NCBI GenBank assembly: GCA_009692115.1
Contig: SHZU01000006.1
Coordinates: 124,001 to 188,000, forward strand
Reading direction: 5' to 3'
Origin: Gemmatimonadota bacterium
Lineage (GTDB): Bacteria; Gemmatimonadota; Gemmatimonadetes; Gemmatimonadales; GWC2-71-9
DNA: 64,000 nucleotides
Shown here: positions 1 to 42,078 of the stretch, piece by piece
Position numbering within the stretch: the first letter of the stretch is position 1
Layout: every line of letters begins with the position of its first letter
The notes under the pieces: generated by a model
The model's database searches: none
Told to the model about the DNA's origin: nothing
Seen by the model: only the letters and a program-made list of their open reading frames with translations
Position numbers and translations under genes: made by a program

Positions 1-1335
1 TATCTCCGGGTCCGTGATGGTGCCGCTTATGTGCCAGGACTCCGGGTCACCTACGGCCCGATCAATGGCCGGATCCGGATGTCGGGTGACTCGCTGATTG
101 CCGACTCGATCGTAGTCCGGAGCGGCTTCGGATCGGCCACCATCGGCGGGGGTATGCGGCTCGAACGGTTGACCCATCCGGTGCTCGGTCTCACGCTGTC
201 CGCCGCTGACTTCGACCTGATCGATGTGCCCGATTACCTGACCCTCCGAGCCACCGGCGATGTGGCCCTCGCCGGCCCGATCGAACGGCCGGTCATGACC
301 GGGAGCGCCCGGGCGACGTCGACGGTGCTCTATTTTTCCGATCTCATCACCAAGGACATCGTCAACCTGGAAGATCCGGCCAATGCCGATCTGGTCGACA
401 CCACCGCCCTCCGGGCCCAGAATATCCGGGCTCAGTTTCAAAGCCGGTTTCTCGATTCCCTGGCGATCCGGGACCTTCGGTTCCGGATCGGTCAGGACGT
501 CTGGCTTCGGTCGAACGAGGCCAACATCCAACTTGAAGGCCAGGTCACGGTTAACAAAGAGCGGCGCCAAAGCCGTCGGAGCGAGTATCGGATCAGCGGC
601 CAGTTAACGACCCCAAGGGGGGCGTACACGCTCAAGCTCGGGCCGGTGTTCCGCACCTTCACCGTGGACCGGGGGACGGTCCAGTACTTCAACACCTCGG
701 ATTTGAACGCCCAACTCGATGTGTCAGCGCAGTACGTCGTGCGGACCGGGGCGGGAGGCGGGCAAGACGAATATCCGGTTATTGCCAGGATTACCGGCAC
801 GTTGCTGGTGCCCAGGCTCAATCTGGCGAGCGAACCCGGCCGGGCGCCGATGTCGGAGCGAGACCTCCTGTCGCTGCTGGTGACCGGAAGCAACTCGAGT
901 GGCTTTCTGGCCCGGAGCGGGGAAGTGTTCAACCCCCAGTTGCTCGCCTCATTGGCCTCGTCCGCCTTTCTCTCGGAGATCGAGCGGGCGTTGATTTCGT
1001 CGCCGAATGCCGCCTTTGACCTGATCGAAATCCGTCCGGGCGTGGCCCAGGGTAACACGCTGTTCTCAAACGGCGGGAGCGTGACCCAGCTTTCGTTAGG
1101 TCGGCAGTTGGGGCGTCGGTTGTTTGCCACGCTCAACTTGGGCGGCTGCCTCCAGCGGTTCGAGTTCGCCCGTCAGTATTTTGGGGCGACCATCGAGTAT
1201 CGCCTCCACCCCTCACTCAAGTTCCAGATCGCGGCAGAGCCGGTGCAATCATGCTTGGCTCAATCGGCGACGCCGCTGACCCGGTCCAACCGGTACCAGT
1301 TCGGTGCGGACCTCAAATGGGATCGGGATTACTGA
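1..1335 (+). CDS. tamB: TamB-like translocation/assembly protein, C-terminal part
   Basis: The frame is open from base 1, so the gene begins outside the window; 444 residues remain. TamB (DUF490) is an inner-membrane-anchored periplasmic beta-rich protein that works with outer-membrane TamA/BamA-type barrels in lipid transport or barrel assembly. The visible part is repetitive beta structure (alternating polar/hydrophobic strands, many Gly and Asp) and ends in the conserved family C-terminus: a SERDLLSLLVTG segment about 160 residues from the end, then strands resembling a barrel protein, finishing with an aromatic residue (DRDY). It overlaps nothing; the next gene starts 1 base after its stop. 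The family call is confident. Nothing upstream can be said. Confidence 0.85.
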   Translation, partial: YLRVRDGAAYVPGLRVTYGPINGRIRMSGDSLIADSIVVRSGFGSATIGGGMRLERLTHPVLGLTLSAADFDLIDVPDYLTLRATGDVALAGPIERPVMTGSARATSTVLYFSDLITKDIVNLEDPANADLVDTTALRAQNIRAQFQSRFLDSLAIRDLRFRIGQDVWLRSNEANIQLEGQVTVNKERRQSRRSEYRISGQLTTPRGAYTLKLGPVFRTFTVDRGTVQYFNTSDLNAQLDVSAQYVVRTGAGGGQDEYPVIARITGTLLVPRLNLASEPGRAPMSERDLLSLLVTGSNSSGFLARSGEVFNPQLLASLASSAFLSEIERALISSPNAAFDLIEIRPGVAQGNTLFSNGGSVTQLSLGRQLGRRLFATLNLGGCLQRFEFARQYFGATIEYRLHPSLKFQIAAEPVQSCLAQSATPLTRSNRYQFGADLKWDRDY

Positions 1336-1336
1336 C

Positions 1337-2239
1337 ATGGCGCGCGCCGTGCTGATCTCCAACCCGGTTGCCTCCCGGACCACGATGGAGCTTGCCGATA
1401 CGGTGCGGCGGACCTTCCGGGCCGGGGGCTGGGGTGTCGACTGGCTCGTGACCCGCGGCCCCGTCGATGCGCGGCGGTTCGCCGAGGCGGCGGTCGAGTC
1501 GGGGGCGGACGCGGTGGCGGTGCTCGGTGGCGACGGGACCACCATGCAGGCGGCCGCCGGTTTGGTGGGGACCGGGGTCCCGTTAGGCTTGGTGCCTGGG
1601 GGGACCGGCAATGTGCTCGCCGGCAATCTTCGGATTCCGGCCGGCCCGATCCAGGCCACCGAACTGATTCTCCGGGGCCGACGCCGGCTGATCGATCTCG
1701 GTCGGATCGACCGGCCCGACGGGATCCACTACTTCGGTGTGGCGTGCGGGGCGGGTGCCGATGCCCGGATCATGGGCGGTACCCCGCCGGACATCAAACG
1801 GACGCTCGGCATCGGGGGCTACTTCAATACCGTCATGGAGCAACTTCCCGCGATTCGGTCGGTTCCGTTTCGGATCACGATCGACGGTGAAACAACCGAA
1901 AGCCGGGCGGCGGTGGTGCTGGTGCTCAATTGCGGCGAGATCATCCCCCCGTTCATCCGGGTCAGCCGGACGGCGGCGCCGGATGACGGTTGGTTCGACG
2001 TGCTCGCCTTCGAGATGGATTCGCCGTGGCAGGGGGTCCGCGGGTTGCTCCGCGTGCTCGCCAACGTGGCGCTCGACACCGGGGAGACTGGGTTTCTCAG
2101 CTACGGCCGGGGCCGCGAAGTGACGATCGATGCCGATGCGGCCGAGCCGGTACAGTTCGATGGCGACGTCGCCGGCGTGACGCCGGTTACCGCCATCATG
2201 CAGGCCAATGCGATTTACGTGATGACGCCCGAATCATGA
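1337..2239 (+). CDS. Diacylglycerol kinase family lipid kinase (YegS/DgkB-like)
   Basis: Predicted 300-residue soluble lipid kinase of the DAGK catalytic family, which phosphorylates diacylglycerol or a related lipid using ATP. The nucleotide-binding motif GGDGT is near residue 65, preceded by the usual N-terminal SNPVAS strand, and a PGGTGN motif follows around residue 90. The C-terminal half is the typical beta-sandwich ending in FDGD. I chose the ATG at 1337 (MARAVLISNP), one base after the tamB stop, over an in-frame upstream start, because it begins exactly at the first family strand. The exact lipid substrate cannot be told from sequence. It could equally be a bacterial sphingosine- or undecaprenol-type kinase. 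Confidence 0.85.
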   Translation: MARAVLISNPVASRTTMELADTVRRTFRAGGWGVDWLVTRGPVDARRFAEAAVESGADAVAVLGGDGTTMQAAAGLVGTGVPLGLVPGGTGNVLAGNLRIPAGPIQATELILRGRRRLIDLGRIDRPDGIHYFGVACGAGADARIMGGTPPDIKRTLGIGGYFNTVMEQLPAIRSVPFRITIDGETTESRAAVVLVLNCGEIIPPFIRVSRTAAPDDGWFDVLAFEMDSPWQGVRGLLRVLANVALDTGETGFLSYGRGREVTIDADAAEPVQFDGDVAGVTPVTAIMQANAIYVMTPES

Positions 2240-2270: not shown

Positions 2271-3611
2271 ATGACCGACTCGATTTTGCTGGTGCACGAC
2301 GACCCCTCCGTCCTTCGCGCGATCGGGGCCCGGTTCGAAGAAACCGGCCACGAGGTCATTCGTGAGTTGTCGATCGAAGCCGGCGTCGCAACCCTGGCCC
2401 GGCTGACTCCCGATGCCGTGTTGCTCTCGATGAGTCTCGGGGCCGTTCCCGGCGCCATTGGATCGCTCGGGGCCGACGAGGCTCCCGTCGTCCTCTTTGG
2501 CGACGGCCCCGATCCCGCGGTGGCCGCCCAGCTGATCGAGGCCGGTGCGTGCCAGGTGGTCGACACCAGAGCCAACCCCGGCGTGCTGCTCAAGGTGGCG
2601 TCCGCCGTGGCGCGGACCACCCGAAATCGGCGGGTGACCCGAACGATGATGGAACGATCAGCCCCCGCCCACGGGCTCGATTCGCTGGGGACCTCGGCGG
2701 GGATGAAGCAGCTGGCCCATCAGATTTCCCTCCTGGCCCAAAGCGACCGGACCACGCTGATGCTCACCGGCGAGTCGGGCGTCGGGAAAGCGTGGGCCGC
2801 GCGGCTGATCCACGACCTGGGCTCCCGAGCCGGCAAGCCGTTTCTTGAAGTCCGGTGCAGCGGGGCGAATCCCGCGTACCTCGAGTCCCTGTTGTTCGGC
2901 CATGAGCGGGGCGCTTTCGTGGAGGCCACCGGACGCCGCCGCGGGTTGCTGGAGATTGCCGATGGGGGCACCCTTCTGCTCCGCGAGATTGGCGACCTCC
3001 CGGCGGAAATCCAGCCGAAACTCCTCCGGGTCCTCGAAACCAGAACCTTCCGGCGCCTGGGCGGCAACGACGACATCAGCGTCGATACCCGACTGATCGT
3101 GACGACCCGCCGGAATCTGTCCGCGGATGTCGAGGCCCACCGATTTCGGGAAGATCTCTTCTACCGCTTGAGTGTGATGCCGTTGGCGCTGCCGCCCGTC
3201 CGGGACCGGAGTCAGGAAGACCGGCTCGGCCTGGTGACGCTGATGCATGAGGATCTCAAGACCCTGATGCCCGATGGGCCCCAGGCGCTCGTGGTCGACG
3301 CCCACGAACGGTGTCTGGCTTACTCCTGGCCCGGCAACCTCCGCGAAATGCAGAACGTGCTCGAGCGGGCCATGCTGGTGGCCAAGGGGCAGGTGACCAT
3401 CAACGTCGAGCACCTGCCGGGAGAGTTCCGGGCCCGAACCGGACTCGGCGACCGCCGTCACACGCCGATGACGCTGGAGGCCCTCGAGCACCAGCATATT
3501 GACCGGACCCTTCGGTATCACGGAGCCAACCGGACCCGCGCTGCGAAGGAGTTGGGAATTTCCCGGGCCACCTTGATCAACAAGATCAAGCTCTACCAAA
3601 TCGTCGACTGA
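2271..3611 (+). CDS. Degenerate NtrC-family regulator (receiver, AAA+, Fis HTH)
   Basis: This 446-residue protein has the layout of a sigma54 enhancer-binding response regulator: receiver (1-120), AAA+ (140-370) and a Fis-type helix-turn-helix at the C-terminus (about 405-446, AAKELGISRATL). All three signature sites are changed. The phospho-acceptor position reads LLSMS with Ser53 in place of Asp, and the usual receiver Lys and Thr are not visible. The sigma54-contact loop GAFTGA reads GAFVEA (214-219). Walker B, normally LDEIGD, reads LREIGD with Arg238. Walker A (GESGVGK) and the Arg-finger motif FREDLFYRL are kept. An AGGTGAG Shine-Dalgarno-like stretch precedes the ATG. It probably binds DNA but may not hydrolyse ATP or contact sigma54; this is inference. 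Compare the canonical NtrX at 40699-42078. Confidence 0.85.
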   Translation: MTDSILLVHDDPSVLRAIGARFEETGHEVIRELSIEAGVATLARLTPDAVLLSMSLGAVPGAIGSLGADEAPVVLFGDGPDPAVAAQLIEAGACQVVDTRANPGVLLKVASAVARTTRNRRVTRTMMERSAPAHGLDSLGTSAGMKQLAHQISLLAQSDRTTLMLTGESGVGKAWAARLIHDLGSRAGKPFLEVRCSGANPAYLESLLFGHERGAFVEATGRRRGLLEIADGGTLLLREIGDLPAEIQPKLLRVLETRTFRRLGGNDDISVDTRLIVTTRRNLSADVEAHRFREDLFYRLSVMPLALPPVRDRSQEDRLGLVTLMHEDLKTLMPDGPQALVVDAHERCLAYSWPGNLREMQNVLERAMLVAKGQVTINVEHLPGEFRARTGLGDRRHTPMTLEALEHQHIDRTLRYHGANRTRAAKELGISRATLINKIKLYQIVD

Positions 3612-3620
3612 GGAGGCCGC

Positions 3621-3812
3621 ATGCCGGGAGAGAAGAAGACCCCGACCGATTCGATGACCTGCCGGGCCTGCGGCCGGGACGAGCGGGCGTCGGAGGGATA
3701 TCCCTGCGACGGCTGCGGCACGTTCATCTGCCTCATCTGCATGTTCCGCGGTGTCGTCCGGTGCACCGAGTGCCAGCAGGCCGAAGGCCAGGCCCCCGCG
3801 GAGCCCGCGTGA
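3621..3812 (+). CDS. Small cysteine-rich zinc-ribbon/B-box-like protein
   Basis: A 63-residue protein with four Cys pairs (CRAC, CDGC, CLIC, CTEC), a spacing that suggests two interleaved zinc sites as in small B-box or RING-like folds. A strong GAGGAGG ribosome site lies 5 bases before the ATG, so translation is well supported. Its stop overlaps the GTG start of the next gene. I do not recognise the family. It could be an adaptor or a regulator for the preceding NtrC-like protein, but only position suggests this. Confidence 0.7.
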   Translation: MPGEKKTPTDSMTCRACGRDERASEGYPCDGCGTFICLICMFRGVVRCTECQQAEGQAPAEPA

Positions 3813-5110: not shown

Positions 5111-5799
5111 TCGCCGAGATACCCGAGATTGGCCCTTATCTTGGCCGGCTCGCGGATGCGGTCCGGCGATTCTCCGATCCCGGCGTCGGGCTTGACGCGG
5201 TTCGACTTCAGTTGGTGACCGATCTCTTCGAGCGAACCCAATCGGCCCGGGAGTTCTTGCTGACGGGCGATGAGGGGGGCGGGCGTGCCGCGCTCGACCG
5301 GGGTGCCTGGCTCGAACTGTGGCGGCGGGCGGCCCACCAAGCCGCTTCGAACACGAGTGCTCTCATTGCCGGGCGGATCTCGGCGGCGGGAAAACGATCT
5401 GGCTATCCCGCCCGCCGCCTAACGTCGTTGCTTCCGACGGAGGAAACCCGGCGGATCCTGGTGGCGAAGGTCGAAGCGGCGGGGATTCCGCTCGAGAGCC
5501 GGTTGGCTCGCGGGTTTCCCGCCGGCTCTGGCTGGTGGGATGCAGTTCGCCGGGCCGTCGTGGCGTTGGAGGATTCCTGGGAGGATCTCGAAATGGTGAT
5601 CCAGGCCGAGCTGGCCGCCGCGGAACCGGTGGTGGAGCGAGTCGGGCAGTGGAAGCCGTCGCCGGCCCCGTGGTTCATTGCCCTTGCGGTTGGGCTGGTC
5701 GTCTCGGGGTGGTTCGGTCTGGTGCTTGGGGGGTACCTGCCCAGACCGGAGTGGCTTGACCCCGTGAACGATTGGTTCTGGAGCCTGCCATGGCCGTGA
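5107..5799 (+). CDS. Hypothetical protein with C-terminal membrane anchor
   Basis: I do not recognise this 230-residue protein. About 190 residues are predicted mostly helical and charged, followed by one clear transmembrane stretch (WFIALAVGLVVSGWFGLVLG) and a short tail rich in Trp and Pro. A tail-anchored topology with a cytoplasmic domain is likely. The GTG at 5107 overlaps the previous stop (GTGA); an upstream TTG at 5092 is possible but would lengthen the overlap. The end overlaps the start of acpS. Confidence 0.6.
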   Translation: MIAEIPEIGPYLGRLADAVRRFSDPGVGLDAVRLQLVTDLFERTQSAREFLLTGDEGGGRAALDRGAWLELWRRAAHQAASNTSALIAGRISAAGKRSGYPARRLTSLLPTEETRRILVAKVEAAGIPLESRLARGFPAGSGWWDAVRRAVVALEDSWEDLEMVIQAELAAAEPVVERVGQWKPSPAPWFIALAVGLVVSGWFGLVLGGYLPRPEWLDPVNDWFWSLPWP

Positions 5800-38921: not shown

Positions 38922-40702
38922 CAGAATCGTCGCTGGAGTCGGAGGGAGAAACGGAACGAGCGGTTGACCGCCACCGATTTGGCCAGGTAGACACCGATCC
39001 CCCCGGCGTCGATGCCGACGCCGACATCGGCATCCCACTCGCCGAATGCCGGGATCCGATTGTTCGGCACCCGCCCGGGGCCCCCGCCCGTGAGCCAGGC
39101 CTTGCCCGCGTCCGCCAGGAGCACCAACTCCGCCCGCTCAATGCCCAAGATCTGCTGCAGTGCCGCCAGTTCTGCGTTCCGGATCCGGAACGGCAGGTCA
39201 ATCGGCAGGTTGGTCCGGATCTCGAGTTGAGCGGCCAGGATGCGATCGCAGAGCGAGGCTTGGCTCTGGTCCGAGAACCCCTGCGGGCCGCAATTGAGGT
39301 CGCGAAAACCGAACCCGGGCAGGATGTCCGGGCCGCCTAACGAAACGCGGCGTTGCACCGGTAACGGGTCGCCCCCGACCCATCCCGCGCCCAGGATTCG
39401 AAGGTTGATCCGGGTGTTGGGGTTGAGTCGGGCGTACCGGGCCACGTCGAACCGGAGTTTCGAGAATGCGTAACGCCCCGGCTCGATCGGCGGCCGGACC
39501 GCGGCCGGGAGGGCCACCGGTGAGGCGTCGTCGCTCCGGCTGCTCTCGAAATCCGCATGGATTTTCCACCCGGTCGAGGGCCGCGCCTGGTCGTTCCGGG
39601 TATCGTAGTCGAGCGACACCTTGCTGGTTCGGTAGAATCCGTCGTCGATCAGCGGATTCGGACGCCAGGTATCCTGGTTGCGGAGCAGGGAGACCGGATC
39701 GCTCGACGGTACCGAGCGTTCCTGGTCGCCCCGAAACGACAAGCCGAGCCGGAGGGTGGGCAGCGGAGCGACGCTCGCGTAGCCCTCGAGGCCCCGGGCC
39801 TCGTAATGGTCGCGGTAGTCCCGTTGGAACAGAAAGGCCGACCACCCCGCCTCGCCTTTGGTCAACGGTTGGTCTTCGATCGACTGGATTTGCCGGTAGC
39901 CGCGGGCCCCGAAGCTGAGCCACCGGCGGGCCGATCCGGCGCGGAATTCAGTCGACACCACAAAGCCGATGTCGTCGCGGAGTTTGGTGCGATCGCTGGT
40001 CGGCCTGAAAATGCCCCGGAGATCGAGCCTCGCATCCGCTCGGTCGGAGCCCTGGGTCGTGAAGGAGGGCCCGAACACGATCGGCAGCCCTTCGACTCGG
40101 TTGTAGGTTCGGCCGGTCTCCAGACTCAACTCAGTGCTGATCCGGCCGGTCTGGAACGACGTCCGGGCCGAGGCAATTTCGCCGAGCGGTTTCCGGTGCT
40201 CCCGCGCTTCGAGCAGGCCGTTCGGTTTCCGGAACACCGGCGCCAGCGCGTCGTACGCGGTCCGCTCGCCGTCGAGCCGTCCGCCCGGGCGGACCTCGAT
40301 CCGCCCGCCGGTGACCAGCACCGGTCCGAGCACGGTGCCCCCCGGCCCGATGATCAGGTCGCCATTGATGACGAGGATCGCCCCCGCAATGGTCCCATTG
40401 ACCCGGAGGGTCCCCCGGTACACCGCCACCCTACCTTCGAGTCGAGCCCCCGCCGGCAGCGAAAAGCTGCCCCCGAATCGGGTCGTCGCGCTGTCGTTAT
40501 AGACCGCGACCACCTGTCCCACCACCCCGCTCGGCAAACTCCGCACGACCGCGGTATCGACCTCCGGCAACGGCCGAATAATCACCAAACTATCCTGAGC
40601 CCAAACCCGCTCCCCCTCTCCCCCCGAGAACAGGAGCGCGAGCACCCAAACCGAGCACCGAACGCCGAGTGCCGAGTGCCGAGCGCCGAGTGCCGAGTTC
40701 AC
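38921..40702 (-). CDS. Bactofilin-like domain fused to a BamA/D15-type outer-membrane barrel
   Basis: A 593-residue exported protein. After a signal peptide (cleavage after VWA), residues 70-150 form short regular beta repeats (GSFSLPAGARLEG, GTIAGAILVINGD, GGTVLGPVLVTGG, GGRLDG) like the beta-helix of bactofilins (polymer-forming cytoskeletal, DUF583). From about 180 the rest resembles a D15/BamA barrel: alternating strands, a conserved LGGPDILPGFGFRDL loop and a C-terminal Phe (LQRRF), the BAM recognition end. The fusion is unusual. The GTG start overlaps the ntrX stop, and its first 15 codons (MNSALGARHSALGVR) are the 7-bp repeat translated. Confidence 0.72.
   Translation of the reverse strand: MNSALGARHSALGVRCSVWVLALLFSGGEGERVWAQDSLVIIRPLPEVDTAVVRSLPSGVVGQVVAVYNDSATTRFGGSFSLPAGARLEGRVAVYRGTLRVNGTIAGAILVINGDLIIGPGGTVLGPVLVTGGRIEVRPGGRLDGERTAYDALAPVFRKPNGLLEAREHRKPLGEIASARTSFQTGRISTELSLETGRTYNRVEGLPIVFGPSFTTQGSDRADARLDLRGIFRPTSDRTKLRDDIGFVVSTEFRAGSARRWLSFGARGYRQIQSIEDQPLTKGEAGWSAFLFQRDYRDHYEARGLEGYASVAPLPTLRLGLSFRGDQERSVPSSDPVSLLRNQDTWRPNPLIDDGFYRTSKVSLDYDTRNDQARPSTGWKIHADFESSRSDDASPVALPAAVRPPIEPGRYAFSKLRFDVARYARLNPNTRINLRILGAGWVGGDPLPVQRRVSLGGPDILPGFGFRDLNCGPQGFSDQSQASLCDRILAAQLEIRTNLPIDLPFRIRNAELAALQQILGIERAELVLLADAGKAWLTGGGPGRVPNNRIPAFGEWDADVGVGIDAGGIGVYLAKSVAVNRSFRFSLRLQRRF
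40651..40699. repeat. Heptamer tandem repeat, 7 units (CCGAGTG family)
   Basis: Seven consecutive plus-strand units: CCGAGCA, CCGAACG, CCGAGTG, CCGAGTG, CCGAGCG, CCGAGTG, CCGAGTT. The array abuts the ntrX stop codon and codes, on the minus strand, for the start of the barrel protein. The same unit is at 32880-32907. Confidence 0.85.
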
Positions 40703-42078
40703 GACAACCCCAACCGCTTCATCCGCCGGTACAAGTTGGCCCGGTCGGTCTGCAGCGCCCGCGCCGCCTCCGCGACATTGCCCTGGGCCCGCGCCAGTCC
40801 TTCCCGGACCAGGGCGCGCTCGTAGTCATCGAGCAAGTTGGAAAGGGAACGTCCCTGGAGATCCAGGCTCCCGGGCTGGGCCACGGCGTCGGTCACCGGT
40901 CCGGGTTCGGTTCGTCCCCGGGACCGCGGCAGCACCTGTCGCACCAAGGCGGCGTCGATTTCCGGACCCCCGATGATCGAGAGCCGTTCGATCACGTTGG
41001 CCAACTCCCGGACATTGCCGGGCCAATCGTACGACGCCATCGACGCCAGGGCCTCGGCCGTAAAGTCGGGAGCTTGATGGCCCCGAAGCCGTTCCGCGAG
41101 ATGGGTGATCAACGCCGGGAGGTCCTCGAGCCGATGCCGAAGCGGCGGCAGTTCGATCGGAAAGACCGCCAGCCGGAAGTACAGGTCTTCCCGGAACGTG
41201 CCGGCGGCCACCGCCTGATCGAGTCGCTGGTTCGTGGCCGAGATGACGCGGACATCAACCCGCTGGACCCGCTCGGCGCCGAGCCGCTGGATCTCGCCGG
41301 TTTCGAGGACCCGAAGCAATTTGGCCTGCGCCTCGAGGTTCAAGTCGCCGACCTCGTCGAGGAACAACGTGCCTCTATCCGCCAGTTCGAACCGCCCCAT
41401 CCGCCGTTCGGTTGCTCCGGTGAACGCGCCGCGCTCGTGGCCGAACATCTCACTCTCAACCAAGTCGCGCGGAATCGCGGCGCAGTTCACCGACACGATC
41501 GGCTTCCCGGCTCGGCGGCCGGCCTGATGGATCGCGTTGGCGACCAGTTCCTTGCCGGTGCCCGATTCTCCGTAGACCAACACCCGGGCCTCGGTCGGTG
41601 ACACCTGGGAGATCGCTTCGGCCACCTTCTGCATACCCTTGGTCGTCCCCACCATCTCGATTCGGGGCCGCTTGAGCTGCGATTTGAGGGCCCGGTTTTC
41701 GGCCTGGGTCCGGGTCAGCTCCAGCGCGGACCGGAGGGTAATCAAGACCGCTTCGGGTGTCAGGGGCTTTTCCAGGAACTGGAAGGCTCCGTGCTTGATG
41801 GCCCGGACCGCATCGGTCAGTTGGGCCTTGCCGCTCATCATGATGACCGGGACGCTCGCGTCCCGCTCCCGGATCTTCTCCAAGGTCGCGATTCCGTCGG
41901 GCCCCGGCGGCATCATCAAGTCGAGCAGAATGGCGTCCGGGTGGTCGCCGTCGATGGCCAGCAGGGCCGCGTTGCCGTTGGGGGACTCGGTCACGTCGAA
42001 GCCCTCAGACTTGAGCAGGGCCCCGAGCATCCGCCGGATGTTCGCTTCATCGTCTACGATCAAGACGCGTATGGTCAT
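40699..42078 (-). CDS. ntrX: Sigma54-dependent response regulator NtrX-like
   Basis: A 459-residue canonical enhancer-binding regulator: receiver with VLIVDDEANIR and phospho-acceptor LLDLMMP, AAA+ with Walker A GESGTGKELVA, intact GAFTGAT, Walker B GTLFLDEVGDL, Arg-finger FREDLYFRL, and a C-terminal Fis helix-turn-helix (ARALQTDRANLYRRMKRLGLS). It is the partner of the kinase encoded just upstream, with ATGA overlap. NtrYX systems control nitrogen, envelope or redox genes; the target here is unknown. Confidence 0.92.
   Translation of the reverse strand: MTIRVLIVDDEANIRRMLGALLKSEGFDVTESPNGNAALLAIDGDHPDAILLDLMMPPGPDGIATLEKIRERDASVPVIMMSGKAQLTDAVRAIKHGAFQFLEKPLTPEAVLITLRSALELTRTQAENRALKSQLKRPRIEMVGTTKGMQKVAEAISQVSPTEARVLVYGESGTGKELVANAIHQAGRRAGKPIVSVNCAAIPRDLVESEMFGHERGAFTGATERRMGRFELADRGTLFLDEVGDLNLEAQAKLLRVLETGEIQRLGAERVQRVDVRVISATNQRLDQAVAAGTFREDLYFRLAVFPIELPPLRHRLEDLPALITHLAERLRGHQAPDFTAEALASMASYDWPGNVRELANVIERLSIIGGPEIDAALVRQVLPRSRGRTEPGPVTDAVAQPGSLDLQGRSLSNLLDDYERALVREGLARAQGNVAEAARALQTDRANLYRRMKRLGLS

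Follow-up and report, generated by a model that had tools for sequence, protein, structure and literature searches.

A Gemmatimonadota NtrC-type regulator that has lost receiver, sigma-54-loop and Walker B residues and retains a constrained DNA-binding domain

Introduction

NtrC-type proteins without a GAFTGA loop work at sigma-70 promoters (PMC10274813, PMC3162934) and were previously known singly. The NtrC proteins of Caulobacter and Rhodobacter capsulatus combine receiver, AAA+ domain and HTH without the sigma-54 loop and act at sigma-70 promoters (PMC10274813), and in the GAFTGA-defective proteins TyrR, DhaR, HupR, VpsR and YplP (PMC3162934) a sigma-54-type AAA+ domain has been untied from sigma-54, as shown for some of them and inferred for others. 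Aspartate-less pseudo-receivers, which lack the phospho-accepting Asp, one acidic residue, the Thr and the Lys, have also been described (PMC12632262). The regulator considered here, encoded in a 64,000-nucleotide stretch of DNA (the window), resembles all of these: it has the same domain order without a sigma-54 loop, a sigma-54-type AAA+ domain probably untied from sigma-54, and a receiver lacking the same residues.

Results

Signature residues lost and kept in the regulator

A preliminary description of this DNA had reported an intact frame with a ribosome site, replacement of the phospho-accepting Asp, the GAFTGA loop and the Walker B Asp, and retention of Walker A, the Arg fingers and the Fis-type HTH. 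These readings were borne out: the 446-aa protein is encoded by an uninterrupted ORF with an ATG start and the sequence AGGTGAG a little 5' of it, Ser53, GAFVEA and Arg238 lie exactly where they had been placed, and the three retained features are present (Table 1), as are, throughout the genus, the Walker B Glu239 and sensor II (GNLRE). Pfam matches were obtained to Sigma54_activat (4.5e-54), AAA_lid_14 and HTH_8 (1.6e-10), and no match to Response_reg was found at E<=0.001, in agreement with a degenerate receiver. An AlphaFold2 model (mean pLDDT 89.3) predicted an intact receiver-AAA+-HTH fold, for which the nearest solved full-length structures were those of NtrX and NtrC1 (best match NtrX 5m7o, E 5.2e-35).

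Losses were scored at columns at least 95% conserved in 52 intact orthologues, using the sequences of the genus and its nearest relative (n=7), and were found to exceed the three sites first reported. Absent from 7/7 sequences were D9 (now His), T77 (Gly or Ala), K99, P100 and the sensor I N280 (Arg), while the switch Asn195 was replaced by Arg in six of the seven. The near-invariant positions lost in all seven amounted to 15/28 in the receiver, 9/66 in the AAA+ domain, 2/17 in the lid and 0/12 in the HTH. Set against the sigma-54-dependent NtrC-type activators (group I bEBPs), the protein has their Walker A, Arg fingers and Fis-type HTH; their phospho-acceptor set (Asp with DD, T and K) has become H9, S53, G77 and T99, their Walker B DE reads R238-E239, and their GAFTGA-type loop is missing, the other five genomes of the genus having GVFV(E/D)A here. 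Like the GAFTGA-less, sigma-54-independent NtrC homologues, it combines an AAA+ domain of NtrC type with a loop 1 that is not of the GAFTGA type. As for the proposal that S53, VEA and R238 might be conserved among orthologues, R238, a V(E/D)A loop and the absence of Asp53 were shared, but S53 itself was not, the other six sequences having Ala.

Table 1. Features of the regulator gene, its neighbours and the proteins compared with it
Feature	Position	Strand	Evidence or remark
3' end of tamB; rest of tamB and tamA (Omp85) upstream of window	1..1335	+	L147; Omp85 3.4e-45, TamB 7.8e-38
YegS-like lipid kinase, upstream neighbour, recurrent in order	1337..2239	+	Pfam DAGK_cat 8.2e-25, YegS_C 1.3e-11
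Degenerate NtrC-type regulator, 446 aa (receiver, AAA+, lid, Fis-type HTH)	2271..3611	+	ORF, Pfam, orthologues, AlphaFold2 model
His9 replacing first acidic Asp of receiver	2295..2297	+	H in 7/7 (genus and nearest relative); D in at least 95% of intact orthologues
Ser53 replacing phospho-accepting Asp	2427..2429	+	S here; A in other six of genus and nearest relative
Gly77 replacing receiver Thr	2499..2501	+	Orthologue alignment
Thr99 replacing receiver Lys	2565..2567	+	Orthologue alignment
Walker A GESGVGK (residues 167-173), kept	2769..2789	+	Sequence, orthologue alignment
Arg195 at switch-Asn position	2853..2855	+	Orthologue alignment
Loop 1 GAFVEA (residues 214-219) replacing GAFTDA/GAFTGA	2910..2927	+	Sequence, orthologues
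Arg238 replacing Walker B Asp	2982..2984	+	R in 10/10 sampled rows, five genera; one change on tree
Arg280 replacing sensor I Asn	3108..3110	+	Orthologue alignment
Arg-finger region REDLFYR (R293, R299), kept	3147..3167	+	Sequence, orthologue alignment
Fis-type HTH, strictly conserved	3453..3608	+	0/12 near-invariant positions lost; dN/dS 0.028
63-aa protein, eight Cys in four CxxC pairs (zinc-ribbon-like), directly downstream	3621..3812	+	96/102 family genomes
NtrX-like protein, intact receiver, GAFTGA loop, canonical Walker B	40702-42078	-	
197-aa regulator version, G013	L188:3004-3594		Receiver, linker and HTH

Orthologues and the order of loss

The regulator was present and uninterrupted in 6/6 genus genomes, its relatives being 72-77% identical. 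At the family level an orthologue was found in 79 of 102 genomes (E<=1e-80) and at the class level in 105 of 295 (E<=1e-75), spread across the whole class; the matching contigs carry the organism name Gemmatimonadetes, which places the regulator in Gemmatimonadota. As RpoN is encoded in 91/102 genomes of the family, among them all six genus members, and the other activators of the window genome have GAFTGA or GSFTGA loops, the change is specific to the regulator at 2271-3611.

Intact orthologues, which have D53 and a DE Walker B, usually carry the loop GAFTDA, some GAYTDA and one GAFTGA. GAFTDA belongs to the loop variants expected to stay active (PMC4641369), and activation has been seen with the corresponding NorR variant, G266D (PMC2941729), which makes it quite possible that the ancestor was a functional sigma-54 activator; a GAFTDA protein, VfmH, did not pull down sigma-54 (PMC10714721). 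The activity expected of the group's usual loop, the NorR precedent and the presence of RpoN could also be taken to mean that the protein at 2271-3611 has remained a sigma-54 activator despite its unusual loop. This is scarcely credible, however, given that 7/7 sequences have Val in place of Thr217 and Arg in place of the Walker B Asp, and that -24/-12 promoter-like sites showed no excess over 20 upstream regions (5 found, 8 expected), a count on which sigma-54 promoters upstream of the operon were rejected.

The order of loss was examined on a tree of 104 rows, 55 loop-intact and 49 loop-lost, which required at least six state changes for the loop, six for the Walker B Asp and four for D53. 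Not one of the 55 loop-intact rows lacked D53 or the Walker B Asp; among the loop-lost rows, D53 was absent from 11/49 and the Walker B Asp from 17/49. Family f2 has an eroded loop and keeps D53, and only one of its sampled rows lacks the Walker B Asp. The Walker B Asp changed to Arg once, in a clade of five genera (support 98/93) with Arg in 10/10 rows, and residue 53 in that clade is S, A, N or D, with no substitute conserved. When loss of the loop was tested against loss of the Walker B Asp in pairs, the tree offered a single independent pair (n=1), too few for any claim of significance.

Selection acting on the regulator

Estimates of dN/dS, which are rough as dS is partly saturated, gave 0.176 for the whole gene in the genus (receiver 0.229, AAA+ 0.154, lid 0.172, HTH 0.028) and 0.057 in g14, an intact comparison genus at similar synonymous divergence (pS) (receiver 0.047, AAA+ 0.050, lid 0.106, HTH 0.036). 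Relative to g14, the receiver evolved about 5x faster and the AAA+ domain about 3x faster, while the HTH was not faster; it is mainly the signalling and ATPase parts that are relaxed, and the HTH is not. Judged from the alignments and these estimates, it is shown that the genus has lost the phospho-acceptor and the rest of the receiver chemistry together with the sigma-54 loop and the Walker B Asp, in a gene that is under purifying selection and whose HTH is constrained to the degree seen in intact relatives.

The disappearance of many catalytic residues, the family genomes that lack the regulator beside the 63-aa protein, and a copy lying in two frames in one genome (G027) would all suit a decaying gene in which stops have not yet been acquired. 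Such decay is nevertheless highly improbable, the gene being uninterrupted in 6/6 genus genomes, with a dN/dS of 0.18 overall and 0.03 in the HTH, and R238 being shared by five genera; stops, frameshifts and a dN/dS near 1, by which a pseudogene would be recognised, were not found in the genus. The preliminary description had argued for a functional pseudo-regulator and against decay, and the intact genus copies, shared substitutions and low dN/dS uphold it. It had also named the combination of canonical orthologues and a dN/dS near 1 as pointing to plain decay: canonical orthologues do exist in other genera, but the ratio is far below 1. The interrupted G027 gene (L189) reflects a sequencing error or a recent frameshift.

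In-frame loss of the AAA+ domain in a relative

In G013, a 97% complete genome of genus g3, the regulator is represented by a 197-aa form with tamB and yegS immediately upstream of its gene. By comparison with 77%-identical sisters, the AAA+ domain and lid (about 248 residues) have been removed in frame; the remaining receiver carries D10->G, D53->G and T77->A, and the HTH is intact. No full-length copy was detected in this genome at E<=1e-80. The AAA+ loss rests on one genome assembly, in which the frame is kept across the junction and an in-frame assembly error is possible.

Related receivers followed by a hydrophobic, probably membrane-spanning segment were observed in G092 (L201), G037 (L202), G176 (L203) and G321 (L204), and no full-length regulator was found in G092 or G037 at the cut-offs used. 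These short forms were rejected as AAA+-deleted orthologues and turned out to be receivers with a likely C-terminal membrane segment.

One role raised in the preliminary description was that of a dominant-negative partner, co-assembling with true activators such as the NtrX-like protein of the window and blocking their hexamers. A kept AAA+ fold and Arg fingers, with hydrolysis probably absent, are what would be expected of such a poison. However, the most constrained part of the protein is the HTH and not the AAA+ interface, and poisoning leaves this strict HTH conservation unexplained; in other lineages the AAA+ loop is eroded or the domain deleted while the HTH is kept; and even the most similar of the window genome's other activators reach only about 34-38% identity. 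Hexamer poisoning is thus unsupported, because the interface that it requires is the relaxed or deleted part, and it is considered very unlikely. The other role that had been raised, that of a DNA binder, gains support from the unaltered HTH and from the relative that kept it on losing the whole AAA+ domain.

Gene neighbourhood and candidate operators

The gene order is tamA (Omp85), tamB, yegS-like kinase, regulator, 63-aa Cys-rich protein, HAD hydrolase and CYTH. The upstream genes and the 63-aa protein recur in families f1 to f3, and other families of the class have different neighbours. No histidine kinase gene was seen adjoining the regulator in the window. The 63-aa protein, for which only a weak Pfam match was obtained (C1_2, below cut-off), was found in 50/50 good family genomes, mostly as a single copy, and adjoins the regulator in most genomes that have one. 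As it is present in some genomes without the regulator, it was rejected as an obligate partner.

TTGAC-N16-G(T/C)CAA-N22-GTCAAT is present a single time per genome in many of the intact relatives, before tamA where checked, against zero occurrences in the control. The genus has GCGTAAC-N12-CTANATTTAG exactly once per genome in the three matching genomes. The intact and degenerate clades yielded no shared operator: their tamA promoter elements differ despite the same HTH, and a CAAACTA-like part also precedes tamA in several genomes without the regulator. Since the tamA element is clade-specific and this part of it occurs without the regulator, it may be simply the promoter.

The tamA start seems to lie no more than about ten bases from a -10-like ATTTAG (L147 around 5680-5715; L148, L149, L152), suggesting that the tamA transcript is leaderless; in the genus genomes that match this element it is found at no other place.

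Discussion

As far as sequence comparison can indicate, the protein is most probably a selected DNA-binding regulator, descended from an ordinary NtrC-type response regulator and no longer acting via sigma-54. Its AAA+ domain would not hydrolyse ATP and would now serve as an oligomerisation or nucleotide-binding scaffold. The regulator would bind its ancestral DNA sites whatever its phosphorylation state and would repress, or recruit at, promoters of the housekeeping sigma factor, its activity being set by protein level and not by phosphorylation, with its own tamA-tamB-yegS operon as a candidate target. Nucleotide may still matter, because Walker A, the Arg fingers and E239 are kept and ATP binding may remain.

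A more specific and rather doubtful version of this DNA-binding reading, whose likelihood overlaps with that of the reading itself, holds that ATP binding by Walker A, without hydrolysis, drives oligomer formation and activation of housekeeping-sigma promoters. The retention of Walker A, Glu239, Arg fingers and sensor II (GNLRE) in the genus, purifying selection on the AAA+ domain (dN/dS 0.154) and the precedent of R. capsulatus NtrC (PMC10274813) speak for it; the switch Asn, sensor I Asn and Walker B Asp have, however, been lost together, and a relative has dropped the AAA+ domain entirely.

Beyond the DNA-binding regulator of the genus, the wider series of orthologues is read, with the chances about evenly balanced, as the repeated and ordered conversion of one orthologous gene from a sigma-54 ATPase to a plain DNA-binding regulator: the loop would go first, Walker B and the phospho-Asp next, and finally, in G013, the entire AAA+ domain, with the HTH retained throughout, together with much of the neighbourhood. 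R238 may have been taken up as a fixed replacement, locking the nucleotide site. The novelty lies in finding all these losses together in a single orthologue under selection, in their having recurred, and in the form that has ended without an AAA+ domain. Versions of one gene that are intact, loop-lost, ATPase-lost or AAA+-deleted can be compared directly, most orthologues of the order sharing a conserved neighbourhood, which allows one to ask which activity is the last that a sigma-54 activator needs and whether loss of the loop before catalysis and phosphorylation is general. Many Gemmatimonadota proteins that could be annotated as sigma-54-dependent response regulators probably are not.

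Several differences set the regulator at 2271-3611 apart from the described proteins. The Caulobacter and R. capsulatus NtrC proteins keep the phospho-Asp, whereas Asp53 is missing here, and Caulobacter NtrC needs both the Walker A Lys and the Walker B Asp (PMC10274813), the latter of which this regulator lacks. TyrR, DhaR, HupR, VpsR and YplP have other targets, while the Gemmatimonadota gene displays graded losses up to complete deletion of the AAA+ domain. In contrast to the aspartate-less pseudo-receivers (PMC12632262), its pseudo-receiver is coupled to an AAA+ domain, which likewise seems to be catalytically inactive. NtrX of Brucella (5m7n/5m7o/5m7p) and NtrC1 of Aquifex (1ny5, 4l4u) share its domain order and predicted fold at about 30% identity, but the catalytic and signalling residues have been replaced in the regulator at 2271-3611.
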